From Planctomycetia bacterium (GTDB lineage: Bacteria > Planctomycetota > Planctomycetia > Planctomycetales > Planctomycetaceae), in contig JACQFH010000105.1 in the NCBI GenBank assembly GCA_016200145.1, forward strand, positions 1-37,567: a stretch of DNA of 37,567 nt, written 5' to 3'. Positions 2,821-20,476 of the stretch are shown one piece after another. Within the stretch, counting starts at the first letter, position 1; each line of letters opens with the position of its first letter. Below the pieces are notes generated by a model that was given only the letters and a program-made list of their open reading frames with translations, had not been told where the DNA came from and searched no databases. Position numbers and translations under genes: made by a program.

Positions 2821-5800
2821 ATGTCGTCGGCATCCAGCAGCAGCGAGCCGCAGCGCGATTTACCCGAATTGCACCTGCGGCAGTCCGAATACCTCAGGCC
2901 GGCTAAGTTGCAGGCGGCCCTGTTCATCGTGGCGATCTTGGCGGCGCTCACGCTGCTCCTGCTGATCCTGCCCGATGAAAGCGAATTGAAACAGGCCACA
3001 CCCGGCCAGGGGACCGTCAGCCTGCAACTGGCTGCCGACGAGAACGAGGCGGCCGGACTGCTCTTCCGTTGGAACAAGGCCAAAGTCCTCAAGGCGGCCA
3101 TCCGCTCGGTACAGCTCGACACCGGCTATTTCATTCTGTCGTACGTCGCCGTTTTCCTGATCGCCGGGTTTGCCGTACGCACGAAATTGAAATGCGAAGA
3201 CATTGCATCGCGTGCCGCTCTGCGGTGGTTCGCCGTCGTGTACGTCGTGTGCCTGGTCGGGGCGGCCCTCGCCGATTCGCGGTACGAGAATCCGGCCCAG
3301 TTGCGGCTGCTACAGCAGGCCGACGGCGTCACCCTCGGCGACAAGGAGCAGGACACCGGGCAGTTCGTGCCCCTGGTGCGGCTGCACCTGCCGGCGATTC
3401 GCCAGGCGGCGCAAATCAAGTTCACGCTGTTGACAGTCGTGTGGGGACTGCTAGTCGCCGGGACACTGGGGGCGGCGCGACGAATCGTCTTCGACCGCAA
3501 GCAGACGGCCAGCGGGGCGCCGAAATTGAAGGGTGATTTCGACAAGCTGGTGAAAGAGGAACGCACCCTGCTGGGCCTGTGCGAAGTGTCGAAGTCGTCG
3601 GTTTGGGAGTCCGAACCGTGGACAAGTGCCGTGCAAACCGACCTGGTGGGACTGGCCTTCTCCGGGGGCGGAATCCGCAGCGCCACGTTCAGCCTCGGAT
3701 TGCTCCAGGGACTGGTGGGGCTGAACGTCCTGCCCCTGCTGCACTACCTGTCAACCGTCTCCGGGGGCGGGTACATCGGCGGCTGGTGGTCGGCCTGGCG
3801 GCTGCGGATCGAAGAGGAACATCAGGCAGGATTGAAAAAGGATCCCCAGCACCCTGTGCCACCCATCCTGCCCGGCGCCAGAGGCCAACCCGAGGCCGAA
3901 GAGGTACGGCACCTGCGCGAGTTCAGCAATTTCCTGGCCCCGCGCTGGGGGTTCTTCGAAATTGAAATGTGGACCGCCTTCATCGCCGTTCTGTTCGGGC
4001 TCGTTCCCACGCTGCTGTTGGCGCTGGCGACGCTGGCGACGATGCAGTTGCTGTGGGTGTCGTCGACGGCGTACCTTTCAACCGGCAGTCTGCCACTGTT
4101 TCTGGCGGCGGCTGTGGTGCCGGCCGCGGCGGTTTTCGTGTGGGGGGAGCTGGCCTGGCGGAAACGGCATCTCGCACAGGGAGCGGATCAAGGCCATGAG
4201 TTCGCCTACGAGCTGTTCGCCTTTCTCGGGCTGGCTTTGGTCGTCGGCGCCTGCGTGGTGTTTCACCGGTATTCGCCGACGCCGGACGGGAGCGCGTGGA
4301 ATCGCGTCTACCGCTGGGGTGGCTTGTCGTCACCGGCGGTCTCCGACTGGATCGGCTGGATGCGATGCCTAGGGGCGACGCAACTCGACAACGTCACCCA
4401 TTTCTGTCCGCGGCTGTTCGACCTGCCGGCGATCTGGCTGATCGCCGGCGCGCTGTTGAGCGTCGTGCGGCTCGTATCGGCGTCAACTCTCACGATCGAG
4501 TATGCGCGGGTCTGGATGCCCCCGGTCGATCGCGTCCTGACGCGGCTGATGGCGCTGGCCGTCGCCTGGGGCGCCGCCGGCCTTTTATGGGAAGCGGCCG
4601 TTTACTTAAACAGCCACGACCTGACCGAGCTGGCTTTCGGCGGCGCCGCGGGCGGGGCCGGCACATTCGCGCTGCTGCGCAACTGGCTGGTGCGCGTCCC
4701 CCGTCTGAGCGGATCGGGAGGCCGGGTCACCAAGCTGCTCAAGCCGATCTTGCCGCAGGTGGTGGCGTATGCCACCGTCGCGCTCGTGTACATTGTAACC
4801 GCCAGCGCCGCCCTGAACCTGCTGGGCACGAGCCCGGTCGCCTGGCAATGGGCGTGGCTCGCGGTCGTGGCGGTCGCCGCGCTGGGCCTGCAGCTTCTCC
4901 CCTCGGAATTCGGTCTGCACGCGTTCTACCGGAACCGCATCACCCGCGCCTACCTGGGGGCGTCGAACCGCGCCGCGCACAACGAGGCCGGCACCGCGTT
5001 CGCCGCCGACAAGAACCGCCAGACCGATCTGCGCCCGGGAGACAACCTGACTCTCGCCTCGCTCGCCGGGGCGCCACAGCCGCTGCATCTGGTCTGCTGC
5101 ACGGCGAACCACCTCTCGGGCGATCAGCTTTCGCTGCTCGGCCGCGGCGGACGCAGCGCCGTGCTGTCGTGTCATGGGATCTCAATCGGCAACAACTGGG
5201 CGGAACGGCCGCGGCTCACGCTGGGTTCGGCGCTCACTGCGTCGGCCGCAGCGTTCAATTCCGAGATGGGCTCGGTCTCGGCGAAAGTCGGGCCGGCGGT
5301 TTCGTTTCTGATGAGCGCGCTCAACCTGCGGCTGGGGCTGTGGGTCTCGCATCCAAGTTTGACCGAAGACGAGCCCAAATGGTTTCCTGGGCTGCAATTC
5401 TACAATGAGCTGTTCGGCCTTTCCGACTGCCTGGATCCGGATGCGGTCGACGTGCACCTCTCAGACGGGGGCCACTTCGAAAACCTGGCGCTGTACGAGT
5501 TGATTCGCCGGCACTGCCGTTACATCATCGTCTCGGACTGCGGCGCCGATCCGCTGGTGCAGTTCGAAGATTTCGGAAACGCCGTCCGCCGCATCCGCGA
5601 GGACTTCGGCGTCGATATCGAGATCGACCTCGATCCGCTGCGGCCCGATTCCAGCGGCCGCTCGAAGCAGCACGCCGTCGTGGGGACGATCCGCTTCGAC
5701 CCCGGCGGCGGAGACCGCGACGTCGGCACGCTGGTGTATTTCAAACCCACGCTGACCGGAGACGAACCGTGCGATATCGCAAATTACCGCACTCTCAACC

Positions 5801-7011
5801 CGGCATTTCCTCACGAGACGACGGGGGACCAGTTTTACGACGAAGCGCAATGGGAATCGTACCGCCGGCTGGGCTCGCATGCTGCGTTCGAGACGTTCAA
5901 CTTTCTCGAAGGCAGGGCCAGCCCGAAAGTCCATGCGGTCTTCAGCGAGGTGCGCGACCGCTGGTATCCGACGCCGCCGGACTTCGACCAGAAACTGACG
6001 GCCATCAATCAACGGTTCATTGATTTCGACCACCGCCTCGCGCAGTCGGCGCCGGCCGGGTTCCTGAAGCAGATCTTTCCCGAGTTGTCGACCGTCACAA
6101 GGGCGGTCCAATCGGCGGCCCAGGCAGCGCAGCCGGCCGCGCAGACGGGCGTAGCCGGCGGACAGCCTTCCGATGAGATTGCTGCAGAGCTGCACCTGTT
6201 GCTCGAGATGATTCAGATCATGGAAGACACGTTCCTCAGCGTTGATTTCCGCAAGAATTTCAATCACCCGCTGATGCTGGGCTGGGTCAACGTGTTCCAC
6301 CGCTGGGCGCATGCGCCGAGCTTCCGGCTGTGGTGGCCGATACTCTCCCCGCTGTATTCCCCCGCGCTGCGGCGCTTTGCCGAGGAGCGGTTCGATCTGT
6401 CTCACACAGCCCTGGAGAGCGTTTTGAAGTTTGACGTCGCGCTGCGGTCCGAATCGGCCGGCGATGAGGAGAAGAGACAGTTCGACGAGGCTCGCAAATC
6501 TCTCCTGCAGCGTGCGGGGATCGCGCCTGGCAAATGGGAGGACGGCGAATCGATCGACTTTGCCCTGTTCTATCTCGTGGGAACTATCGACGGCACGACG
6601 GTTCGGGGCCCGGTTGGTGCTGCGCGATTCCAGTTTAAAACCGAAAGGGAGAGGCGATTGGCCGAGTGGCGCGATTCCCACTTCCTGATCATTCCTGGTC
6701 TATGGGGGGCGGGCCTGGGGGGACGGTTCCTGAAAGAGCTCATCCAGCGGTTGCCCGAGGCGTCAGTGTCATCGGCGCAGGAAGGTCAGCCCGCACCGTC
6801 GCCGATCGACACGCTGCGCGTCGTGATCGATCTCAATCGCACCGAGAACACCGGGTACATACGCCGCGACGTAGGGCACCGGCGTGAGCGCAACGACCTC
6901 CTGGTGTTCTACAAGTTTCACGGCTTTGCGGCGCCCGCCGCGTCCCAACCCTCGGGCGAAGCGGAAAATCCCATGCTGATCGAGTTGGAACGGCCGCTCG
7001 TCATGCCGTAA
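2821..7011 (+). CDS. patatin-like phospholipase, large polytopic membrane protein; candidate effector of the RADAR-like locus
   Basis: The protein has 1396 aa. Four N-terminal membrane segments (about residues 34-53, 103-120, 136-153 and 200-218) lead into a patatin core. The oxyanion-hole motif is S-GGG-I-R-S at 281-287 and the nucleophile elbow is STVSGGGYIGG with Ser314. A large insertion rich in membrane helices (about 385-720) follows. The fold resumes near 810 and reaches the D-G-G motif, with catalytic Asp882 in HLSDGGHFEN. The Ser-Asp dyad is therefore complete but about 570 residues apart. Patatins hydrolyse phospholipid acyl esters; bacterial ones serve as toxins and as membrane-degrading defence effectors such as CapV of CBASS. 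The ~450-residue C-terminal part is unrecognised. It is the first of three large same-strand genes, 157 nt before the ATPase. The lipase fold is well supported; the defence role is inferred from context. Confidence 0.85.
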   Translation: MSSASSSSEPQRDLPELHLRQSEYLRPAKLQAALFIVAILAALTLLLLILPDESELKQATPGQGTVSLQLAADENEAAGLLFRWNKAKVLKAAIRSVQLDTGYFILSYVAVFLIAGFAVRTKLKCEDIASRAALRWFAVVYVVCLVGAALADSRYENPAQLRLLQQADGVTLGDKEQDTGQFVPLVRLHLPAIRQAAQIKFTLLTVVWGLLVAGTLGAARRIVFDRKQTASGAPKLKGDFDKLVKEERTLLGLCEVSKSSVWESEPWTSAVQTDLVGLAFSGGGIRSATFSLGLLQGLVGLNVLPLLHYLSTVSGGGYIGGWWSAWRLRIEEEHQAGLKKDPQHPVPPILPGARGQPEAEEVRHLREFSNFLAPRWGFFEIEMWTAFIAVLFGLVPTLLLALATLATMQLLWVSSTAYLSTGSLPLFLAAAVVPAAAVFVWGELAWRKRHLAQGADQGHEFAYELFAFLGLALVVGACVVFHRYSPTPDGSAWNRVYRWGGLSSPAVSDWIGWMRCLGATQLDNVTHFCPRLFDLPAIWLIAGALLSVVRLVSASTLTIEYARVWMPPVDRVLTRLMALAVAWGAAGLLWEAAVYLNSHDLTELAFGGAAGGAGTFALLRNWLVRVPRLSGSGGRVTKLLKPILPQVVAYATVALVYIVTASAALNLLGTSPVAWQWAWLAVVAVAALGLQLLPSEFGLHAFYRNRITRAYLGASNRAAHNEAGTAFAADKNRQTDLRPGDNLTLASLAGAPQPLHLVCCTANHLSGDQLSLLGRGGRSAVLSCHGISIGNNWAERPRLTLGSALTASAAAFNSEMGSVSAKVGPAVSFLMSALNLRLGLWVSHPSLTEDEPKWFPGLQFYNELFGLSDCLDPDAVDVHLSDGGHFENLALYELIRRHCRYIIVSDCGADPLVQFEDFGNAVRRIREDFGVDIEIDLDPLRPDSSGRSKQHAVVGTIRFDPGGGDRDVGTLVYFKPTLTGDEPCDIANYRTLNPAFPHETTGDQFYDEAQWESYRRLGSHAAFETFNFLEGRASPKVHAVFSEVRDRWYPTPPDFDQKLTAINQRFIDFDHRLAQSAPAGFLKQIFPELSTVTRAVQSAAQAAQPAAQTGVAGGQPSDEIAAELHLLLEMIQIMEDTFLSVDFRKNFNHPLMLGWVNVFHRWAHAPSFRLWWPILSPLYSPALRRFAEERFDLSHTALESVLKFDVALRSESAGDEEKRQFDEARKSLLQRAGIAPGKWEDGESIDFALFYLVGTIDGTTVRGPVGAARFQFKTERERRLAEWRDSHFLIIPGLWGAGLGGRFLKELIQRLPEASVSSAQEGQPAPSPIDTLRVVIDLNRTENTGYIRRDVGHRRERNDLLVFYKFHGFAAPAASQPSGEAENPMLIELERPLVMP

Positions 7012-7168
7012 TCGTCGTCGCAGGACCGAACTCCCCAGAATTCGCAGCGTCGGATTCCCAAAAAAGGCGCTTGCTTCGCGTCCCCGGCCATGCCTACTGT
7101 AGGGGGTTGCGGTTCGCGTTCTGCGCCGGCCAGCAGATTGGCACCGGCGGAGGCGCAGCACCGCGAGC

Positions 7169-10100
7169 GTGACGTCCGTGGGCCCAGCACAACAGTCCGC
7201 CGCTATGACAGCCGACCGGAATCCCACCCTTCGCCCTGAAGCCCAGCCGGTCGGCGACTGGGAGCGCTTGACCGACGATCAGCGGCGCGGCCTCGAGCGC
7301 TTGCTGGCGATGATGCAGGAGTCGCTCGTCCGGCTGGCCAACGCGCCGCCGCGCGACGATCGATCGCTGCCGTGGCTGTTCGACGAACGCCACTCGCAAC
7401 TGGCGTTCATCAATGGCCGCCGGGGAACCGGCAAGACGACACTTCTGACAACGCTCGCCAAGGCCCTCGACGATCAACGGTTCCGCGCCTCGCTGACTGC
7501 CGGCGCGAAGAATGACACCGAACGGGCAATCCGCGTGGCCGAGCGCGGCGCAGGCCTGAGCGGGCGCGTCGTGATTCTGGAGCCGCTCGATATGGAGCCG
7601 CTCCCGCGAGCCACCCCGCTCCTGGCGGCGATCCTGGCGCGGCTGAATCAGGCAGTCCGCCGATTGAGCAGTGCGGGGCACTCCGAGTCGCGCCTGCTGA
7701 CGGGAGACTGGCACGACGAGCGCGAATTTCTGCGTTTGCAGCAGTACCAGGCACGCGTCGCCGGCGCGCTCGAAACCAACCTTCCCGAGCGGCGCTCCCA
7801 GCTCGACGGTGAGCAGTACTCGCGCGAAGTCATGGACCAGGAGCATAACCGCCTGGAGCTGCTGGCGAATTTCGAACAGGTGCTGTACGGACTTTCGGCC
7901 GACTTGCAGAGGCGGCGGCAGGGTGCAGCCAAGGACACGCGGGACGCTCCGCTCCTGTTCCTGGTCCCGATCGACGACGTCGACCTGAATCCCGCGCGCT
8001 GCGTGGACCTGCTCCGCCTGCTGCGCTCGTATTCGCCCCCGCAGCTCTTTTTCGTGCTCCTGGGCCAGTACGACCTGGTCGAGCAGATCATGAAGCTGAA
8101 AATGGCCGACGAGTACTACAATGTGCACCCGCGCCTCGAAGCGTTGCCGGTCGTGCCCGTCGAAGAGCTGACGAAGGAGCTGGTGGAAGTCGCCGCGTCG
8201 AACGTGCGGAAGCTGGTCCCTCCCTCGGGGCGCATCGAACTGGCATCGATCGGCATCGGGCAGATCATGGAATTCAGACCGCTGCTGGATGATCGCCTGA
8301 TTCAGCCCGCACCGGCCCCCACGCTGGCCGACCTGTGCGCCCGGTTTGAATTGCCGAGCGTGACGGTCGGCGGAAAAAGCTTTGGCACGCTCGATCGCCT
8401 GCTGCGCGGTCAACCGGTCTGGCTGGAAGATCCTCTGCCGATCACGACCCAGGACGCAGCCCAGTTTCCGTGGAGCGAATACTGCGGGCTGGGCGCGCTG
8501 CAATCGTCGGCGCGCCGGCTGGTCGACCTGTGGCTCGAGATGCAGAAACTGGATGCCGAGAATGAGACGGCCAGCACACCTCAAGACTCCGCGCGTCCGC
8601 CCGTGCTGGTGCTGGTTGAGCGGCTCTGGAACCGGGTCGTCGACGAGGATGCACAGTTGACAGTGGACATGCGAAAACGGCTCAAAGAGGAAAAGCAGGC
8701 TGCGTGTGAGCTGTCTCCGCAGACGGAATTCATGGCCGAGCGTGATTTCGAAATCGAAGGGTCGGCGATCACGGTCGCGTCGGGCGGGACAGACCGGACC
8801 AAGCCGCGTTATCAGCCGCGGTTTCAGACGGCGTCCCTTGTGCCGAGGTCCGGTGTTCCCCGAGCCGCCATGCGAAACCGGGGAGCCCCCGGCACCAGCC
8901 CGCCCGATGCGGGAGAAATCAGGGATCCGCGGACGCGCTGCGCCCTGGTCCTGCTGCACGACGTGGCCGCGATGTGCCCCAGACCGGTGCGCGACATGCT
9001 GCCCTCCGCGTCGGCGCCGATCTTTCCCATTCGACTGGTGTGGCCGGATGCTGCCGGGAAGTTGCAACCGATGTCCTGGCCCCTGCCTCCGCTCACGACG
9101 CTCGCCGAAATGGTGCTGTTTTTCGGTCGCGTGCGCCACGCGCTGCAGCCCATCCTGTCGAGGCAGGCGACGGCTGCGCCGGCGATTCCCGTGAACGACA
9201 TCTGCGACCTCGTGCAGGCCTGGATCGCCGCCGGGTTGGTCGGGCTCGAGGTTCAGGAAGCGGCGACAGAATTCTTGGGCCGCCTCGCGGCGCAGGCCCG
9301 CAATGAGCTTGCGGACGACTCCGACGAAGTGGAAATCGCCCGCTGGCGGACGATGATCGTCGAGGTGCACAACTTGCGCGAGCAGGCGGCGGCCGACCGC
9401 AGCGAATGGCGCCTGGCACAGATCGACGAGTGGCTGCGGCAGGTCGCGCTGCTGCTCATGCCGGAAATGTGCTCGCTGCCGGTTTCACGCAGGCTCATCC
9501 ATCAGATCGAGAAGGCCGACGTCAATCACTCCCTCGAAAGACTTCTGAAGCAGAACGTCGGGTTGCTTCGCAATCGCCGCGAACAGCAGCTCTCTGTATT
9601 CAATAGTCCCGACGATCGTGGTCTCAAACAGGCGCTGAACGTGCCGCCCGAGGCCGATTCCTGGCTGTTTATCAGCCTGCCCGAGGTGACGTCGAAACCT
9701 CCCGAGGAAGCAGCCACGGCGTCGGCGGTGCAAAACGTCAAAGCCGAGGTGCAACGCTCGCAGTTGTATTCTCTCCTGGAGCGCGGCAAGACCGAGGAAA
9801 TGACGAATCCCTCGACCTCACGGGCCACTTACCAGCGCGCCTGTGAGATTGCTGAAGAAATCGTCCACGAAAATCCGAACGACAGCAAATCACTGCGCGA
9901 CCTGTCGCTGGCCTTTGACAGTCTGGGGAATGTCCTCTTGCGACTCGATAAGGTCGAAGCCGCGCGCGACGCGTACCTGCGGGCTCTCGAGATCGATGAA
10001 CGGCTGGCGCAAGTCAATCCTCGCGACATCCAGTTGCAGCGCGGACTTTCGGTATCACACAGCCGCATGGGAAACGTGCTGCTGCGCCTGAACAAGCTCG

Positions 10101-11014
10101 ACGCGTCGCGTGAGGCGCACCTCCGCGGGCTGCAGATCGCCGAGGAGCTCGCTCGATCGCATCCCGACGACCTGCAGATCCAGCGAAGTCTGTCGCTCTC
10201 GTATAACAAGATCGGGGACGTCTATCTGCGATTGAATGATCTCCAGGCGGCCCGCGAGGCCTACCGTCAGGCGATGGAGATTCGACAGAGGCTGGCCGAA
10301 AGCGACCCCGATTCCACCCAGTCGCAACGAGATCTGGCCATCTCGCACGGCAAGCTGGGCGATGTCTTCCTGCGACTGAATCAACTCTCGGAAGCGCAGA
10401 ACGCCTACCGCCGCGCGCTGCAGATCGACAAACAACTGGCCCGTGAACATCCCCGCGACAGCCAGACCCAGCGGGACCTGTCTGTTTCCCACGGGAAGAT
10501 GGGCGACGTGTCCCTGCGACTGGACCGGATTGACGAAGCGCGAGACTCGTACAACCGGGCCCTGACGATCGACAAACGGCTCGCCAAAGCCAGTCCCAGC
10601 GACAGCCGGGCTCAGAGGGACCTGGCGGACTCCTTGACCAAGATCGGCGACGTGTTTCAGCGGCTCAACAAGAAAAGCGAAGCCCAGGCGTCATTCCGTC
10701 GCGCCCTGGATATGATCGAGAAGCTCCTGCGAACGAACCCGACAGACAACCTGTCACGCGTCGAACTGGCCAAGATCAGCGGGAAACTGGCGGAAGTGGC
10801 CGAGTCGAAGTCCGCTCAACTGTCGCTGCGGAAGCGGGCTTTGGCGCTGCTCCAGGCCGAACGTGTCCGCGACATCCCCTTCGACCCGGATGTGGAAGAG
10901 ATTTATCTGCACCTGAAAAGCATTTTTGAAACCGAGACGGAAACAGCCCCAACTTCCGGCACGGACCGGAAACGGCAAACCGCGAAGAAACGCGCGAGCA
11001 AGAAGGCGAATTGA
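7169..11014 (+). CDS. RdrA-like P-loop ATPase with C-terminal TPR array (RADAR-like system)
   Basis: The frame gives 1281 aa from GTG 7169, with GGAGG at 7149-7153 upstream; ATG 7205, twelve codons later, is an alternative. The Walker A motif GRRGTGKT is at residues 83-90 (preceded by LAFIN). The Walker B region LLFLVPIDDVD is at 262-272, followed by a sensor-like FFVLLGQYDLVEQ. This is the KAP/STAND/AAA+-like arrangement seen in conflict-system NTPases. Residues ~1-880 have roughly the size expected for RdrA of RADAR. Residues 910-1197 hold six uninterrupted 48-residue TPR-like units, a C-terminal extension I do not associate with standard RdrA. The C-terminus is basic (KKRASKKAN). The next gene, 125 nt downstream, encodes a divergent adenosine deaminase, which is the main reason for the RdrA call. 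RdrA is known to form ring oligomers that act with RdrB. The ATPase call is certain; RdrA orthology is inferred. Confidence 0.75.
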   Translation: MTSVGPAQQSAAMTADRNPTLRPEAQPVGDWERLTDDQRRGLERLLAMMQESLVRLANAPPRDDRSLPWLFDERHSQLAFINGRRGTGKTTLLTTLAKALDDQRFRASLTAGAKNDTERAIRVAERGAGLSGRVVILEPLDMEPLPRATPLLAAILARLNQAVRRLSSAGHSESRLLTGDWHDEREFLRLQQYQARVAGALETNLPERRSQLDGEQYSREVMDQEHNRLELLANFEQVLYGLSADLQRRRQGAAKDTRDAPLLFLVPIDDVDLNPARCVDLLRLLRSYSPPQLFFVLLGQYDLVEQIMKLKMADEYYNVHPRLEALPVVPVEELTKELVEVAASNVRKLVPPSGRIELASIGIGQIMEFRPLLDDRLIQPAPAPTLADLCARFELPSVTVGGKSFGTLDRLLRGQPVWLEDPLPITTQDAAQFPWSEYCGLGALQSSARRLVDLWLEMQKLDAENETASTPQDSARPPVLVLVERLWNRVVDEDAQLTVDMRKRLKEEKQAACELSPQTEFMAERDFEIEGSAITVASGGTDRTKPRYQPRFQTASLVPRSGVPRAAMRNRGAPGTSPPDAGEIRDPRTRCALVLLHDVAAMCPRPVRDMLPSASAPIFPIRLVWPDAAGKLQPMSWPLPPLTTLAEMVLFFGRVRHALQPILSRQATAAPAIPVNDICDLVQAWIAAGLVGLEVQEAATEFLGRLAAQARNELADDSDEVEIARWRTMIVEVHNLREQAAADRSEWRLAQIDEWLRQVALLLMPEMCSLPVSRRLIHQIEKADVNHSLERLLKQNVGLLRNRREQQLSVFNSPDDRGLKQALNVPPEADSWLFISLPEVTSKPPEEAATASAVQNVKAEVQRSQLYSLLERGKTEEMTNPSTSRATYQRACEIAEEIVHENPNDSKSLRDLSLAFDSLGNVLLRLDKVEAARDAYLRALEIDERLAQVNPRDIQLQRGLSVSHSRMGNVLLRLNKLDASREAHLRGLQIAEELARSHPDDLQIQRSLSLSYNKIGDVYLRLNDLQAAREAYRQAMEIRQRLAESDPDSTQSQRDLAISHGKLGDVFLRLNQLSEAQNAYRRALQIDKQLAREHPRDSQTQRDLSVSHGKMGDVSLRLDRIDEARDSYNRALTIDKRLAKASPSDSRAQRDLADSLTKIGDVFQRLNKKSEAQASFRRALDMIEKLLRTNPTDNLSRVELAKISGKLAEVAESKSAQLSLRKRALALLQAERVRDIPFDPDVEEIYLHLKSIFETETETAPTSGTDRKRQTAKKRASKKAN
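9896..10759 (+). repeat. six in-frame 144-nt (48-aa) TPR-like units in the ATPase gene
   Basis: Units start at 9896, 10040, 10184, 10328, 10472 and 10616 with no insertion or deletion. The consensus is R-D-L-[SA]-x-S-x-x-K-[ILM]-G-[DN]-V-x-L-R-L-[ND], followed by an A-x-x-x-Y-x-R-A-L-x-I-D helix. A degenerate seventh unit starts at 10760 (VELAKISGKLAEV). Each unit is one helix-turn-helix pair plus a long linker helix, as in TPR solenoids. Confidence 0.9.
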
Positions 11015-11139
11015 TCCTCTGACGGCCGGTCGCGAGCATAGGTCCGGGACCAGACGGCATTTCCGGCGATTTCGGGCAGTTCAATCCAACCACCCGGCGG
11101 CGAGCAGCGCTTCGCGGCTTATTCTCGAGTCATCACAGC

Positions 11140-13842
11140 ATGGCCAACGCGCGGACGATTCTGATTTCGCTCGATCATCTTGTCGCCGAGATGACGGCGT
11201 TTCCGTTCGCCGCCGAGCCGGCGCTGCGGTTCCCGGTCGAGGAGTTGTCGCCCGGCCTGGATCGGCCGACGGCCGCCCTGTGGCGCGAGACCGAGCGCTA
11301 CTTCGTCGCCCATTTTCCCCACACGCATCTCGACGAGCTGATCGCCCTTCGCAATTCAGTGTGGTTCGCCCGCGCCGATCAGCGGCCGATCCCGCTGCAC
11401 GCCGCCCTGCAGGGGGCGGCCGCCGCGGTCCTCGTCAATCACGGGGCGATCGCCGAACCGACGCTGCCCGACGGCTCTCTGAATGCCGAGCCGTGCGATC
11501 CGGCTGCGCGGCGGGCCTGGCGCTGGCTGACGTTCGCGATGCCCGCCGACCTGCTGCTGGCGGGGCTGTCCCGCGGCGGCTCGGGGCCGCTGCGCGTCAA
11601 TCTCCTGTCGCCGGCCGTCGCCGCAGTCCTGGAAGACGGGGGCTATGCCGAAACGCACCTGCACTATGGAATTGCCCTCAACTTTCCCACAGCGTGGGCC
11701 TCGGCTGTCAACATCGTGGGCCGCGCGCCGGGGGCGGGGCCGAGCCTGAACTTCAACGCCTTCAGCAGCCCCGGCGCCGAACATGCCGAAGGCGAGCGGC
11801 TGGCCAGCTGGCTCGTGCGCGGGGCGATCGTCCGCTACCTGCTCGCCGCGTTTCTCACGAACTATTCGCATCTGGCGGGGTTGGACGAGTTCCTGAAATC
11901 GGGCGCGCAGGCCCTGCCGGCAATCCTCACGGCCGCGTTCTGGACGTTCGAGCAGATCGACGCGCTCCGCGCCGCGATCCGCGATCTGTTTCTCGGCCAG
12001 CTCAACTCCGCACCGTGGGACCAGGTTCCGATCAGGCGCTCGTTCGTCGCCCTGCAGCGGATTTACAACCGGCTCACCCGGGTTTCGCTGCAACGCCCGC
12101 CGAGCCGGCTCGATGACGTGCAGCGCCTGGACCCGCTGTCTGACTTTTTCCCCGCCCAGGGATTTCACGGCGCCTCGGTGCAGTTGCAGTTCCTGTGGAA
12201 GGGGCTCGATTACCTGGAACGCCGCGCGCAGGATCGGACGTTTGCGCGACTGTTCTGGCAGGTCGAACGGGTGCGGGGGCAGGTGTACCGGCACTGCATC
12301 CAGCGGCCGCTCACTCCGGGGCTGATGAATTTCATTCGCTTCTACGAACGCAAGGGGCCGGTCGCCCAAATGCTGGAAGATGTGACGCTGGAATCAGCCG
12401 GCGTCCTGGGGGGCATCGGCCATGGCCTGCGGTCCCTCGAAATCCGCACGAGCCCCGTCACGAACCGCGATGCCCAGCTCAAATTGATCCGCAGGCTCCA
12501 GAAGCACTGGAGAACGCTGCACACCACCGCCGGGCAGACCCGCGACGGCCGCCTGCGCGCCACCGGCTGGCGGCAGACCGAATGCGGCCTGGTGCTGCAC
12601 TTTCTCAAGTTCCGCGGCAAACACTCCGACCGCGGGGAACCGCGAGCCTTCGACGCGGGGAATTTCGCCGATCCGTCGGCCCGCGGGAATCTCCACGGGT
12701 ATCGCTGGGGCGAGTTCTTCCTCGCGCGGCGAAAAGAAGCGCGGGCCATCGCCAGCGCCGTCCGGCACGACCTGACCAGCCCGCTCCCCCGCAACACGCC
12801 GCCGATCGTGTATTTTCTGCGGGGGATCGATGTCTGTCGCGACGAGCATGGCGTACCGGCCTGGGTCGTCGCGCCGCTGTTTCGCCTGGTGCGCCGCGCC
12901 ATCGAAGAAGCGATCGGAGAATACCGCGGCCGGCGCGGCATCGAGCTGCCGTTGCCGCGGACCACCGCCCACGTGGGGGAAGACTTCGTCCACCTGGCGA
13001 CCGGCCTGCGGTACATGGACGAGGCGCTGGATTACCTGCCGTTGCGATCGGGGGATCGCGTGGGGCACGGCCTGGCGCTGGGCGTGCGGCCGAAAGAATG
13101 GGCCCGTAAATCGACGCGCCTGGCCATGCCGCGCGAAGACCGCTGGCTCGACCTGATCTGGGAGCGCGCCTGGCACGCCCGGACCGGCGCGAATTTCGCC
13201 CCCGACCGGCGGGCCTGCGTCGAAGACGAGATCATCCGCTTGTCGCGGGAGATGTTCGCCGACGGCGAGCCCTGGACGCCCGACGACGCGCAGCAGCTCG
13301 TCCGCGGTCTGTATTCCGCAGAGTCGCTGCAGGCCGCCGGCTTTCCCAACGGCAGATTGCCGGCTGCCGCGCCCACCGGGATCCGGCGCCGGCTCGAACG
13401 CTACCTGACCGATCGCATGGTCTATCGCCGCGGGCGTGAAATCGAATGGGTACGGACCGAGACGGAAGGGGACTCGATCAAGGAACTGCAACGGCTGGTC
13501 CGCAAGCGATTTGCCGAAACGGGGATCACAATCGAAGTCAATCCGATCTCGAACCTGCTGGTGGGAGACCTGACCGAGCTGACGAGCCATCCGCTGTGGC
13601 GACTGGCGCCGGGACTGGGAAACGACAAGGGACTGACACTCAGAATCTGCGTCGGCTCCGACGATCCGCTGCCGTTCGCCACGACGCTCCCCGAGGAGTA
13701 CCAGTTCCTCTACGACTCGCTCGTGCTCGCCGGGCAGTCTCAAGCCGAGGCCCGCGCGTGGCTAGAGCACGTCCGCAAGTTGAGCTGGGAATCGCGGTTC
13801 ACCGTTTCCGCTCCCGGCATCGCGGCGTCGGCTGGGAACTGA
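11140..13842 (+). CDS. RdrB-like divergent adenosine deaminase (RADAR-like system)
   Basis: The product (900 aa) carries every metal-binding and catalytic motif of the adenosine deaminase (amidohydrolase) superfamily. These are HLH at residues 173-175 (family HxH), HVGE at 611-614 (family HAGE: His ligand and proton-shuttle Glu), RVGHG with His643 (family RIGHG), an EVNPISNLLVG stretch (family C/NPTSN), and SDDP with Asp841-Asp842 followed by F-A-T-T-L-P-E-E-Y. Classical adenosine deaminases are about 350 aa. Here a ~435-residue segment separates the HxH and HxGE motifs, so the barrel carries a large insertion. Long, insert-bearing deaminases next to an ATPase are characteristic of RADAR, where RdrB forms large assemblies and converts adenosine to inosine in RNA and/or ATP to ITP. 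The ATG start has no obvious ribosome-binding site. Metal-site integrity argues for an active enzyme; the substrate is not determinable here. Confidence 0.82.
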   Translation: MANARTILISLDHLVAEMTAFPFAAEPALRFPVEELSPGLDRPTAALWRETERYFVAHFPHTHLDELIALRNSVWFARADQRPIPLHAALQGAAAAVLVNHGAIAEPTLPDGSLNAEPCDPAARRAWRWLTFAMPADLLLAGLSRGGSGPLRVNLLSPAVAAVLEDGGYAETHLHYGIALNFPTAWASAVNIVGRAPGAGPSLNFNAFSSPGAEHAEGERLASWLVRGAIVRYLLAAFLTNYSHLAGLDEFLKSGAQALPAILTAAFWTFEQIDALRAAIRDLFLGQLNSAPWDQVPIRRSFVALQRIYNRLTRVSLQRPPSRLDDVQRLDPLSDFFPAQGFHGASVQLQFLWKGLDYLERRAQDRTFARLFWQVERVRGQVYRHCIQRPLTPGLMNFIRFYERKGPVAQMLEDVTLESAGVLGGIGHGLRSLEIRTSPVTNRDAQLKLIRRLQKHWRTLHTTAGQTRDGRLRATGWRQTECGLVLHFLKFRGKHSDRGEPRAFDAGNFADPSARGNLHGYRWGEFFLARRKEARAIASAVRHDLTSPLPRNTPPIVYFLRGIDVCRDEHGVPAWVVAPLFRLVRRAIEEAIGEYRGRRGIELPLPRTTAHVGEDFVHLATGLRYMDEALDYLPLRSGDRVGHGLALGVRPKEWARKSTRLAMPREDRWLDLIWERAWHARTGANFAPDRRACVEDEIIRLSREMFADGEPWTPDDAQQLVRGLYSAESLQAAGFPNGRLPAAAPTGIRRRLERYLTDRMVYRRGREIEWVRTETEGDSIKELQRLVRKRFAETGITIEVNPISNLLVGDLTELTSHPLWRLAPGLGNDKGLTLRICVGSDDPLPFATTLPEEYQFLYDSLVLAGQSQAEARAWLEHVRKLSWESRFTVSAPGIAASAGN

Positions 13843-16660: not shown

Positions 16661-16898
16661 TCTGATTCGCGCTGTGCGGGCCCTGGAAAAATGCGATTGT
16701 ACACCCGCGACATCGTGAAGCAACTCTTCGGACCATTCAGTAAAAGCTGTATGTCGGTTCTCGCTCCGCGAAAGGGCGCACTTTCGCGGAGCGAAAGGCA
16801 ACTCTGTTTCGAGGGGTCTTGGTTTCAAAGAATCAGACGGCTATCATGCAGATTCTCAATCAAATTTCGCTGGCTACCATGCCGCCTTGGGAGAAATC
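16661..16898. promoter_or_regulatory. divergent intergenic region
   Basis: This 238-nt gap separates the minus-strand RDD/glycosyltransferase pair from the plus-strand nitrilase gene, so promoters for both should lie here. I cannot assign -35/-10 boxes with confidence. It contains a 14-bp perfect palindromic repeat at 16761-16794. Confidence 0.45.
16761..16794. repeat. 14-bp perfect stem palindrome (TCGCTCCGCGAAAG)
   Basis: TCGCTCCGCGAAAG (16761-16774), loop GGCGCA, and the exact reverse complement (16781-16794). I recall similar 'CTTTCGCGGAGCGAAAGG' sequences as dispersed repeats in planctomycete genomes, but cannot confirm that here. Confidence 0.85.
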
Positions 16899-18329
16899 AT
16901 GCAATTGCCGTCCACGGTTTGCTGCTGCCTGATTGTCAGTGGTGTGATAACAACGATCGCGGATTCGAGCGCGGTGTGCCGAGCGAACGACGACTGGCAA
17001 AAGGGCAATCTGGTTGCCAATGGGGAATTCAAGGCCCCGGCGCGGGGCGAACTGCCCGAGGGCTGGTCGGTCGTTGCGCCCAATCCGGCGCTGCGACCGA
17101 AGTTCGTGGTGGATTCCGGAAATGGCGGCGGGCCGCGACTCGCGGCGCAGGGCAACGGCCGGTCGGAGTGCTACGGGTACGTCAAGCACGCCGTCCACCT
17201 GACCGGCGGCAAGACTTACCGGCTGCGCGTGCGCTTTTCGATCGACGGGCTGGAAGACGTCAACCGGCATCTCGTCCATGGAATTTTTGGCCACGGATTC
17301 AACGAGGGAATCTTCGAGTATCTTCGCGACGGGCACGAGATCATCGGCGAGAGGTCGTTCAAGGGGCCGGCCGGCGACGTCGACGCCGAGGTGCGGCTCT
17401 GTTTTCGCTACTCAAAGGACGGCAAAGCCGCCTGGCACGCTGTCTCGTTGCAGGAGCGAGAGCCCCTTCCGGCGCGACCCGTGAAGATGGCGGTGAGCTG
17501 GGGCTGGGGCGGGAAAGACCCGGCAGCCAATTTGGCGCACTGGACCGAATTCCTCGACGAAGCCGGCAAGCGCGGCGCCGATATTGCGCTGCTTCCTGAA
17601 GTCTTCAACGTCGCCGAGAAGAATGCCGCCGAGCCCGCTGCCGCCGAAACGATCGACGGCCCGGCGGCCCGCTTCATGGCCGCCAAAGCCCGACAATGGA
17701 AGATGTACGTCAGCGGCAGCTTCAAGCGGCAGGACGGCGATGTCTATTACAATTCTGCGCCGCTCTTCGACCGGCAGGGCAAACTGGTCGGCGTTTACGA
17801 CAAGAACATGCTGTTCGACCCCGAGCTCGACCAGGGGACCAGTCCCGGCGTCGGTTACCCGGTCTTCGAGACCGATTTCGGAAAAGTCGGCGTGATCATC
17901 TGTTACGACAGTTGGTTTCCCGAGCCGGCGCGACTGCTGGGCTATCAGGGGGCCGAGCTTGTGCTGTTTCCCAACGCAGGCTATGCCCGCGAGCTGATGC
18001 CCGCCCGCGCATCCGACAACGGGCTGGTGATCGCGGTCAGCAGCCTGAATTGCCCGGCCGGTGTCTGGGATTCGGGTGGAAATCAGGCGGGCGAATCGAA
18101 AGCCGAGGAAACCCGGTATGCTCCCAACAACGCCATCCTGGCTCACGATAAGATCGACTCGCTGCGTATGGTGTTTACCACGGTCGATCTGGCGCAAAAG
18201 CCCAGCCCGCATTACTGGGGCGGGCCGATGCTTTCGGCGCCGGCGGCGCGGCGCGTGCGGCAGACTTGGCGCGTGCCGCTCGAGCGCGACATCGAGCGCG
18301 AGGCCCGCCGCTGGTTGAAGATTCGATGA
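16899..18329 (+). CDS. secreted carbon-nitrogen hydrolase (nitrilase superfamily) with N-terminal accessory domain
   Basis: The product is 476 aa from ATG 16899, four bases after GGGAGA. A signal peptide covers about residues 1-28. Residues ~35-185 form a beta-rich region (VANGEFKAPARGELPEGWSV..., KTYRLRVRFSIDG) like carbohydrate-binding or jelly-roll modules in exported planctomycete proteins. The catalytic part starts near VKMAVSWGWGG and has the nitrilase triad: Glu234 (LLPE), Lys302 (YDKN) and Cys335 (IICYDSWFPE). The superfamily hydrolyses amides or nitriles. An exported member with an accessory module suggests an extracellular or periplasmic amide substrate, possibly in cell-wall or polysaccharide material. 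The stop overlaps the next gene's ATG (ATGA, 18326-18329), so the two are probably co-translated. Confidence 0.88.
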   Translation: MQLPSTVCCCLIVSGVITTIADSSAVCRANDDWQKGNLVANGEFKAPARGELPEGWSVVAPNPALRPKFVVDSGNGGGPRLAAQGNGRSECYGYVKHAVHLTGGKTYRLRVRFSIDGLEDVNRHLVHGIFGHGFNEGIFEYLRDGHEIIGERSFKGPAGDVDAEVRLCFRYSKDGKAAWHAVSLQEREPLPARPVKMAVSWGWGGKDPAANLAHWTEFLDEAGKRGADIALLPEVFNVAEKNAAEPAAAETIDGPAARFMAAKARQWKMYVSGSFKRQDGDVYYNSAPLFDRQGKLVGVYDKNMLFDPELDQGTSPGVGYPVFETDFGKVGVIICYDSWFPEPARLLGYQGAELVLFPNAGYARELMPARASDNGLVIAVSSLNCPAGVWDSGGNQAGESKAEETRYAPNNAILAHDKIDSLRMVFTTVDLAQKPSPHYWGGPMLSAPAARRVRQTWRVPLERDIEREARRWLKIR

Positions 18330-20476
18330 ACAACCTGCTGATCGCCGTATTGAGCTGCCAGGCGTATCCGCAGCGGCGGGAGCGATGCCTGGCGACGTGG
18401 ATCCCCAAGGCTCGCGAGCTGGGGATTGACGTGGTGTTCGTCGTGGGGTCGCCCTCGCAAACGCGCGCGGTTCGTGACGGCGACTTGCTGATTGTTCCCG
18501 CGGGCGACGACTATGCATCGCTGCCGCAAAAAGTTGCGGAGCTGTGTCGCTGGGCATTGGCTGAGACCGACTGCGATTACCTCTTTAAATGCGATGACGA
18601 CACGTACGTTCGCCCCGAGCGCCTGCTGGCGGTGGACGTGGAGGGGGCAGACTACATCGGCGCCGAATGGGCTCCCGGCGCCGGCTACGCCAGCGGCGGC
18701 GCGGGATACCTGCTGAGCCGCAGGGCGATCGAGACCGTTTCCGCGACAATGCTGCAGTTCGTGAACGACCCGACGCCGACCGATGCCGAAGACGTGCTGG
18801 TCGGGCGGTGCCTGTTCCGGTCCAATCTCCCCCTGCGGATTGACGGGCGATTCCTGCCTTATGGAAACGACGAGCTGCGCCCCCGGCCGGGAAATCATTA
18901 TGTCACGGCGCATGCTTGCCAGTGGCCGTGGCTTGGACATCACGTCGATTTCGAAGGGCGAAGCCCGGTCGTCACCTGCCGGCCGCTGGGAGGCCTCTGC
19001 AACGTGATGTTTCAGGCGGCGGCGGCGGCGGCGTTTGCCCAGCGACACGGCACGCACCACGCCGTTTTCGATTCTGCGAGCTTCGGCCGTCACAGAAACA
19101 CCGTCTTTCGCAGCCTCACGTACGGGAGAATTCCGGGCGAGGTCTTGTCGGTCGACGACCCCGAGGATTTTTCGTTCCGCTCGATCCCGAACAATCCCAG
19201 CTACAGCGTTGCCGTCTGCGGGCATGTGCAATCTGAAAAGTATTTCGACGACTGCGGGGAGCTGATTCGAAATCTGTTTCAGCCCGCGCCCGCTGAGCGG
19301 AGGCAACTGGGCAGGAAATACGGTGCCCTGCTCGGCCGGAATACGGTCAGCCTGCACGTCCGCCGCGGCGATTACGTCGGCAAACAGAACTACCACCCGC
19401 TCTTGCCGCTCGATTATTACGACCAGGCGCTGCGCCATATCAAGGGTCTCGATTCGATCGAAAACGTGCTCTGCTTTTCTGATGACCTGCCCTGGTGCCG
19501 CGAGCACCTGCGGCTCGACCGGCCCGTGCACGTCATCGACGGCGAGCCCGACCACCTGGATCTGGCGCTGATGTCGATGTGCCGGCATCACATCATCGCC
19601 AACTCGACGTTTTCGTGGTGGGGGGCGTGGCTCAATCCGGATCCGACGAAAATCGTGGTGGCGCCCCGGCGCTGGTTCGGCCCGGCGTACGGGTCGCTAT
19701 CGGACCGCGATCTGGTGCCCGCCGCGTGGACGCGTATCGGCTGGCCAGACCAGGAATCAATCCGTGCGCCGTGCGGATTGCGCACCGGCAGCCGGCGGAT
19801 TGCCGAGGCGCCGCGATTCTCCCACGGGCTGACAGCGGCCGAAATGCGGGCTCTCGTGGGCCGCGACGATCCGCTGGTCTTCGAACTGGGCTGCAACGAC
19901 GGTATCGATTCAGCCAATTTCCTGCGGGAGTTTCCGGGGATTACTTTGCATTGCTTCGAGCCCGATCGCCGGCCCCTGGCGAGGTTTCGCGAGCGCATCT
20001 CAGACCCGCGCTGCACGCTGCACGAGTTCGCCATCGGCGCGGCCGACGGCGAGGTGGAGTTTCACTTGAGCGGCGGCAACCCGCCCGACGGCCGCATGAA
20101 CGACTGGGACCTGTCGTCTTCGCTGCGGCGGCCGACGGGTCACCTGGCGGCCCATCCCTGGTGCACGTTCGATCGCAAGATGACTGTGCAAACCCGCTCG
20201 CTCGATTCGTGGCTCGCCGGGCGGCCGGAAATCACCGTCGTCGATTTTATCTGGGCCGACATTCAGGGGGCCGAATGTGATTTGATTGCCGGCGGGGCCG
20301 CCGCTCTGCAGGAACGCACCCGGTATCTGTACACCGAGTTCTACGAGCAGCCGATGTACGACGGGCAGATTGCCGGGCAGGAGATTCTCGACCGCCTGCC
20401 CGCGTTCGAGTGCATCGGCGTCTACGAGGGCTACAACATGCTGTTGCGAAACAGGCAATTGTCGTCGCAGGACTGA
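18326..20476 (+). CDS. three-domain glycan enzyme: GT31-like transferase, GT11-like fucosyltransferase, FkbM methyltransferase
   Basis: The product has 716 aa. Residues ~1-210 resemble beta-1,3-galactosyltransferases (GT31): CQAYPQRRERCLATW at the N-terminus, a metal-binding DDD at 90-92 in CDDDTYV, and GGAGYLLSRRAIE plus TDAEDVLVGRC later. Residues ~218-475 resemble GT11 alpha-1,2-fucosyltransferases: GGLCNVMFQ, HVRRGDYV (344-351) that would contact GDP-fucose, and NSTFSWWGAWL (426-436). Residues ~500-700 form an FkbM-type SAM methyltransferase: FELGCNDGIDSANFL (519-533), then CFEPDRRP and WADIQGAECDL. One chain could thus add two sugars and methylate a glycan. The ATG overlaps the nitrilase stop by four bases. 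All key motifs appear intact. The stop lies in a 14-bp palindrome. Domain calls are firm; substrates are unknown. Confidence 0.88.
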   Translation: MNNLLIAVLSCQAYPQRRERCLATWIPKARELGIDVVFVVGSPSQTRAVRDGDLLIVPAGDDYASLPQKVAELCRWALAETDCDYLFKCDDDTYVRPERLLAVDVEGADYIGAEWAPGAGYASGGAGYLLSRRAIETVSATMLQFVNDPTPTDAEDVLVGRCLFRSNLPLRIDGRFLPYGNDELRPRPGNHYVTAHACQWPWLGHHVDFEGRSPVVTCRPLGGLCNVMFQAAAAAAFAQRHGTHHAVFDSASFGRHRNTVFRSLTYGRIPGEVLSVDDPEDFSFRSIPNNPSYSVAVCGHVQSEKYFDDCGELIRNLFQPAPAERRQLGRKYGALLGRNTVSLHVRRGDYVGKQNYHPLLPLDYYDQALRHIKGLDSIENVLCFSDDLPWCREHLRLDRPVHVIDGEPDHLDLALMSMCRHHIIANSTFSWWGAWLNPDPTKIVVAPRRWFGPAYGSLSDRDLVPAAWTRIGWPDQESIRAPCGLRTGSRRIAEAPRFSHGLTAAEMRALVGRDDPLVFELGCNDGIDSANFLREFPGITLHCFEPDRRPLARFRERISDPRCTLHEFAIGAADGEVEFHLSGGNPPDGRMNDWDLSSSLRRPTGHLAAHPWCTFDRKMTVQTRSLDSWLAGRPEITVVDFIWADIQGAECDLIAGGAAALQERTRYLYTEFYEQPMYDGQIAGQEILDRLPAFECIGVYEGYNMLLRNRQLSSQD

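Follow-up and report, generated by a model that had tools for sequence, protein, structure and literature searches.

In a planctomycete-like bacterium, the 716-residue protein P0001 joins a GT31-like glycosyltransferase, a GT11 fucosyltransferase and an FkbM methyltransferase in a single chain, with intact catalytic motifs from the three families, modeled GT31 and GT11 folds, and a subfamily-level similarity of the methyltransferase to the rhizobial enzyme NoeI. We propose, with more confidence than doubt, that P0001 works in the cytoplasm and caps a glycan in three steps, in which the GT31 domain would add a hexose or HexNAc, the GT11 domain an L-fucose and the NoeI-like domain a 2-O-methyl group. 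The likely product is a sugar chain with 2-O-methylfucose at its end, predicted because GT31, GT11 and a close NoeI relative are joined in one protein. The novelty lies in the combination and in the 2-O-methylfucose prediction, as the parts were already known.

Organization of P0001 and its gene

P0001 is translated from one uninterrupted frame of the window, which is the whole stretch of 37,567 nucleotides analyzed here (Table 1). As the first-pass annotation had claimed, the GT31-like, GT11 and FkbM domains follow each other in this order with their motifs intact: the three Pfam families all score above their cut-offs, and CDDDTYV, HVRRGDYV, NSTFSWWGAW, FELGCNDG and DIQGAE are all present in the translation. 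P0001 keeps 29 of the 31 columns conserved among relatives in GT31, 38 of 41 in GT11 and 17 of 18 in the methyltransferase. The presence of the three domains is far beyond chance.

The ATG of P0001 overlaps the stop codon of an upstream carbon-nitrogen hydrolase gene (atga, 18326-18329), and the two genes are probably co-translated. No obvious polysaccharide locus was seen around the P0001 gene, whose partner is this hydrolase gene; hydrolases in the genomes of P0001 relatives are only 31-42% identical to that of the window. The three parts of P0001 have a GC content of 0.643, 0.635 and 0.648, respectively, compared to 0.633 for the window, and the GC3 of the gene (0.797) matches that of the neighbor genes (0.78-0.84). 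A recent foreign import of the gene is unsupported, because its GC3 equals that of its neighbors.

Table 1. Positions of P0001, its domains and motifs, and the adjacent upstream gene in the window
Feature	Position	Strand	Evidence
Carbon-nitrogen hydrolase gene, upstream of P0001	16887..18329	+	Pfam CN_hydrolase, E 1.1e-34; 4-base overlap with P0001 start
Three-domain protein P0001	18326..20476, stop included	+	Single open frame
GT31 (beta-1,3-glycosyltransferase-like) domain, residues 1-205	18326..18940	+	PF01762, phmmer, AlphaFold
CDDDTYV, metal/nucleotide-sugar motif (D90-D92)	18590..18610	+	D90-D92 invariant in 27 GT31 relatives
E155-D156, GT31 catalytic acidic pair position	18788..18793	+	E155 invariant, D156 at least 90% (27 relatives)
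H196, candidate metal-binding His of GT31	18911..18913	+	Invariant in 27 relatives
GT11 fucosyltransferase domain, residues about 215-472	18968..19741	+	PF01531, AlphaFold fold match
HVRRGDYV, GT11 GDP-fucose binding motif	19355..19378	+	R346, R347 invariant; G348, D349, Y350 at least 90% (40 GT11 rows)
NSTFSWWGAW, GT11 signature	19601..19630	+	10 of 10 residues invariant in 40 GT11 rows
GT11-methyltransferase linker	19742..19822	+	No family match; pLDDT low at GT11 model end
NoeI-type FkbM methyltransferase domain, residues about 500-712	19823..20461	+	PF05050, TIGR01444, NoeI identity
FELGCNDG, SAM-binding motif	19880..19903	+	Aligned with LDIGCNDG of NoeI
DIQGAE, FkbM signature	20258..20275	+	Aligned with DVQGAE of NoeI

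The N-terminal GT31 domain

The first domain belongs to GT31, a membership that is settled at the family level. Pfam Galactosyl_T (PF01762) matches residues 17-102 with 39.3 bits over a cut-off of 23 (E 7.6e-10), and phmmer with this domain retrieved Drosophila C1GALT1 (PDB 7q4i, E 9.3e-10) and human B3GALT6. With a six-sequence profile, B3GALT5, B3GNT2, a chondroitin synthase and Fringe were retrieved as well. As the full-length alignment for structure prediction smeared single-domain fragments across the other domains, the GT31 and GT11 domains were modeled separately in AlphaFold. The top PDB matches of the GT31 model (pLDDT 90.2) are all GT31 enzymes, namely B3GalT5, B3GalT6, CHSY3, C1GalT1, B3GNT2 and Fringe, with Z scores of 17-20.5; domain 1 of chlorovirus A064R is a more distant fold (Z 14.8, 11-12% identity). 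The pair E155-D156 aligns with AEDV of Drosophila C1GALT1. The domain would act as a metal-dependent inverting GT-A enzyme that transfers a hexose or HexNAc, probably in beta-1,3 linkage; its donor and acceptor are unreadable from the sequence, since GT31 enzymes use several sugars.

The GT11 domain and the supply of GDP-fucose

Pfam Glyco_transf_11 (PF01531) covers residues 283-448 with 85.1 bits over a cut-off of 23.9 (E 6.6e-24), and domain searches uphold both glycosyltransferase memberships proposed by the first-pass annotation. The best matches of the AlphaFold model of this domain (pLDDT 86.7) are the GT-B, GDP-fucose-using enzymes FUT8, AtFUT1, NodZ and POFUT1 (E about 1e-6). The GT11 domain would transfer L-fucose from GDP-fucose onto the newly added sugar, probably in alpha-1,2 linkage.

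GDP-fucose could plausibly be supplied by candidate genes of the source genome, which carries a gmd gene above cut-off on contig C301. On contig C164, an fcl-like gene neighbors a gmd fragment truncated by the end of the contig; this fcl-like gene scores best against GDP-L-fucose synthase, although its 294 bits do not reach the NCBIfam cut-off of 500.

The C-terminal NoeI-type methyltransferase domain

The third domain matches Pfam Methyltransf_21/FkbM (PF05050) at residues 535-691 (56.4 bits over 22.7, E 5.2e-15) and NCBIfam fkbM_fam (TIGR01444; 73.9 bits over 37.7), and judging from its closest matches it can be named more narrowly than FkbM, as NoeI-like. It shares 42.5% identity with NoeI of Sinorhizobium fredii NGR234 over 90% of the length (E 3e-45), and in the reverse comparison the best match of NoeI among the open reading frames compared in this analysis is P0001. 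When 72,556 plasmids were searched, the proteins that matched strongly were NoeI-type ones from Rhizobium, Bradyrhizobium and Sinorhizobium (42-45% identity), NGR234 NoeI among them, and the remaining FkbM matches are only about 27% identical.

The noeI gene of NGR234 sits within the nodBC-nodIJ-nolO cluster. PMC4881576, citing Jabbouri 1998, reports that NoeI 2-O-methylates the fucose of Nod factors, and NoeI is likewise credited with methylation of the Nod-factor fucosyl residue, as 2-O-methylfucose (PMC6275314). In the tree, the P0001 methyltransferase pairs with a viral-contig FkbM protein (support 87), with NoeI nearby and no strongly supported set containing both. We infer on good grounds that domain 3 acts at O-2 of fucose; because the clade support with NoeI is not strong, this assignment falls short of a demonstration. 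In P0001, domain 3 would methylate O-2 of the fucose just added, leaving a terminal 2-O-methylfucose.

Relatives and recurrence of the mosaic

The layout of P0001 is rare, not unique. The first-pass annotation had known of no described enzyme with this layout and had called GT31-like domains much commoner in eukaryotes; parallels to the layout do occur, and GT31-like domains are no oddity in bacteria. L067, a Verrucomicrobial protein of 1374 aa (MAG UWPOB_VERRUCO3), has the GT31-GT11-FkbM order of P0001 in addition to further domains; in nine Verrucomicrobial genomes a single chain carries both GT31 and GT11, and further genomes encode them as adjacent genes; chloroviruses possess three-domain glycosyltransferase chains. 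Few Planctomycetota have GT31-like domains (Pfam, 2/392 genomes; profile search of the class, 4/398), which are more frequent in the phylum to which L067 belongs (22/289 genomes), and 46 GT31-like loci, often multidomain, are found in IMG/VR viral contigs. In addition, a Pfam scan revealed Verrucomicrobial proteins of 765 and 1104 aa with a class I methyltransferase between GT31 and GT11, and further partners of GT31 include pyruvyl transferase, sulfotransferase, GT2, GT32, core-2 branching GT14 and GT10 domains. An FkbM-like open reading frame lies directly beside the GT11 frame at 14 of the 79 viral loci, a number that includes near-duplicates. In a second Pirellulaceae genome, Roseimaritima (L007), the GT31-to-GT11 junction is repeated in one frame, which then runs into an RHS-repeat open reading frame.

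Despite the same order of domains, L067 differs from P0001 in that it is longer, its GT31 part lies on another branch, and its FkbM domain is so distant from domain 3 of P0001 as to be barely alignable (24% identity, E 0.42). A common origin of the two chains was rejected, because a single clade for their GT31 parts has p 2e-10. For separate origins of the GT11 fusions, the analysis gave neither statistical nor phylogenetic proof, because the AU test leaves one clade of the P0001 GT11 and the Verrucomicrobial GT11 unrejected (p 0.58). The search for the architecture in other genomes thus recovered the same order in L067 but no intact whole architecture with a NoeI-type domain outside the source genome among the relatives searched, and no whole-length relative of P0001 among the phages and plasmids searched. 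Searches of the literature for GT31 proteins of bacteria, or for glycosyltransferase-methyltransferase fusions, returned none beyond chloroviruses.

We tentatively suggest that P0001 might belong to a class of modular GT31-centered glycan-building polyproteins of Planctomycetota, Verrucomicrobiota and mobile elements, in which fucosyl-, methyl-, pyruvyl- and sulfotransferases and branching enzymes are swapped, and of which P0001 would be the member that writes a beta-1,3-hexose capped by 2-O-methylfucose.

Proposed pathway and alternative explanations

The assembly line of hexose, fucose and methyl transfer that the domain order had suggested stands as the most economical model, and it is strengthened by the similarity of domain 3 to NoeI and the proven precedent of chlorovirus A064R; the reaction order and the activity remain at the level of prediction. 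GT31, GT11 and methyltransferase domains recur in differently built chains, which supports a shared substrate. We infer the activity, cytoplasmic location, donors and acceptors, linkages and step order of P0001, and a glycan common to its three domains.

The assembly line might be real and its product another one, the methyl group being placed on a different sugar such as the hexose transferred by GT31, or the GT11 domain having drifted to another GDP-sugar. FkbM enzymes methylate many substrates, the tree neighbors of domain 3 include viral-contig proteins of unknown substrate, and the methylated position may vary between chains, as the Verrucomicrobial relatives use a different methyltransferase family between GT31 and GT11. 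We consider this unlikely, given that most other FkbM proteins found share much less identity with domain 3 than does NoeI, a fucose 2-O-methyltransferase, and that the methyltransferase domain directly follows the fucosyltransferase in P0001. Still less probable is a fusion that is neutral or serves co-expression, with the three domains acting on separate glycans. The very varied partners of GT31-like domains, ranging from pyruvyl transferase and sulfotransferase to GT2, GT32, GT14 and GT10, suggest that such domains may fuse at little cost and without specificity; against this, GT31, GT11 and methyltransferase domains come together again in separate lineages, and A064R shows that such chains can be sequential.

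An artificial fusion of separate genes by assembly or binning, also raised by the first-pass annotation, is very improbable. The source genome comprises 742 contigs, and the exact three-part chain with a NoeI-type domain occurs in this genome only; however, a chimera is hard to reconcile with the unbroken open frame, the GC content and codon bias even with those of the neighbors, and the recurrence in Roseimaritima of the junction between GT31 and GT11.

Comparison with known systems

The GT31 domain of P0001 resembles animal C1GALT1, B3GALT5/6 and B3GNT2 in fold, DDD motif and the positions of the ED pair and His. Animal GT31 enzymes are membrane-anchored Golgi proteins, whereas that of P0001 is a soluble-looking domain inside a bacterial fusion. 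The rhizobial pair NodZ and NoeI also places a fucosyltransferase and an FkbM fucose 2-O-methyltransferase in sequence, and NodZ shares its general fold with the GT11 model; however, the pair is encoded by separate genes, lacks a GT31 step and modifies a lipochitooligosaccharide, and NodZ is an alpha-1,6 fucosyltransferase from a family other than GT11. P0001 would link a Nod-factor decoration enzyme to organisms beyond rhizobia.

Among one-chain systems, A111/114R of chlorovirus PBCV-1 likewise has three domains, starting with a galactosyltransferase and finishing with a fucosyltransferase, but it has a xylosyltransferase in the middle and no methyltransferase, and its domains 1 and 3 were modeled on a GT8 enzyme and an alpha-1,3-FucT, respectively (PMC7826918). 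The precedent for the proposed route is PBCV-1 A064R, in which two glycosyltransferase domains precede a methyltransferase in one chain of about 640 aa. Its domains act from the N- to the C-terminus, the last one methylating O-2 of the terminal rhamnose, with all steps carried out in vitro, so that the methyl group sits at O-2 of the last 6-deoxyhexose as predicted for P0001 (PMC9614988). A064R differs in being viral, in adding two L-rhamnoses in place of the predicted hexose and fucose, and in a first domain that is like that of P0001 at the fold level only.

P0001 would extend this one-chain assembly logic to bacteria, and it offers a sharp product prediction, a terminal 2-O-methylfucose, from sequence alone. 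Reading domain order as a glycan recipe would aid in decoding uncharacterized glycans of Planctomycetota and Verrucomicrobiota, and P0001 could serve as a one-pot enzyme. Altogether, these comparisons place P0001 as a putative bacterial counterpart of single-chain enzymes for glycan assembly, one for which a specific product is predicted.

Multidomain GT31 proteins at other loci

Several carriers of the chains in which a methyltransferase stands between GT31 and GT11 have genomes of about 3 Mb. Within the Planctomycetota, a second GT31 chain, 645 aa long, accompanies one of 733 aa in a genome (G368) from the family to which the window belongs; a copy of the 733-aa type on a viral contig (L101) possesses an N-terminal GT2. 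At the Roseimaritima locus L007 (5287-8683), the GT31-GT11 frame stops and an ORF with RHS repeats starts in a different frame, a switch that reflects either a rearrangement or a misjoin of the contig.

Coordinates of GT31 multidomain proteins and of genes upstream of the three-domain gene
Locus	Positions	Strand	Feature	Remark
Window	2821-7011	+	Large protein	Candidate patatin-like and membrane-bound, judged by eye
Window	7169-11014	+	Large protein with TPR repeats	Putative P-loop, by eye
Window	11140-13842	+	RdrB adenosine deaminase match	PADLOC E 5.7e-31
Window	16887-18329	+	Carbon-nitrogen hydrolase, additional N-terminal part	Overlaps three-domain gene by 4 bases
L196	2400-4694	-	GT31-methyltransferase-GT11
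L185	3004-6315	+	GT31-methyltransferase-GT11	Pyruvyl transferase ahead of GT31
L133	5014-8370	+	GT31-methyltransferase-GT11	Pyruvyl transferase ahead of GT31
L190	3564-5762	-	GT31 chain, 733 aa	G368
L191	3680-5614	-	GT31 chain, 645 aa	G368
L170	2383-5730	+	Core-2/I-branching GT14, GT31, GT10 fucosyltransferase	Verrucomicrobial, 1116 aa
L171	660-4139	-	GT31, GT32-like domain, pyruvyl transferase, nitroreductase	Single 1160-aa frame

Genes upstream of the three-domain gene

The window also carries a RADAR-like gene cluster at 2821-13842 on the forward strand.

Comparison with animal glycosyltransferases

In animals, the GT14, GT31 and GT10 families, which are combined in the verrucomicrobial protein at L170, make mucin and Lewis-type glycans.
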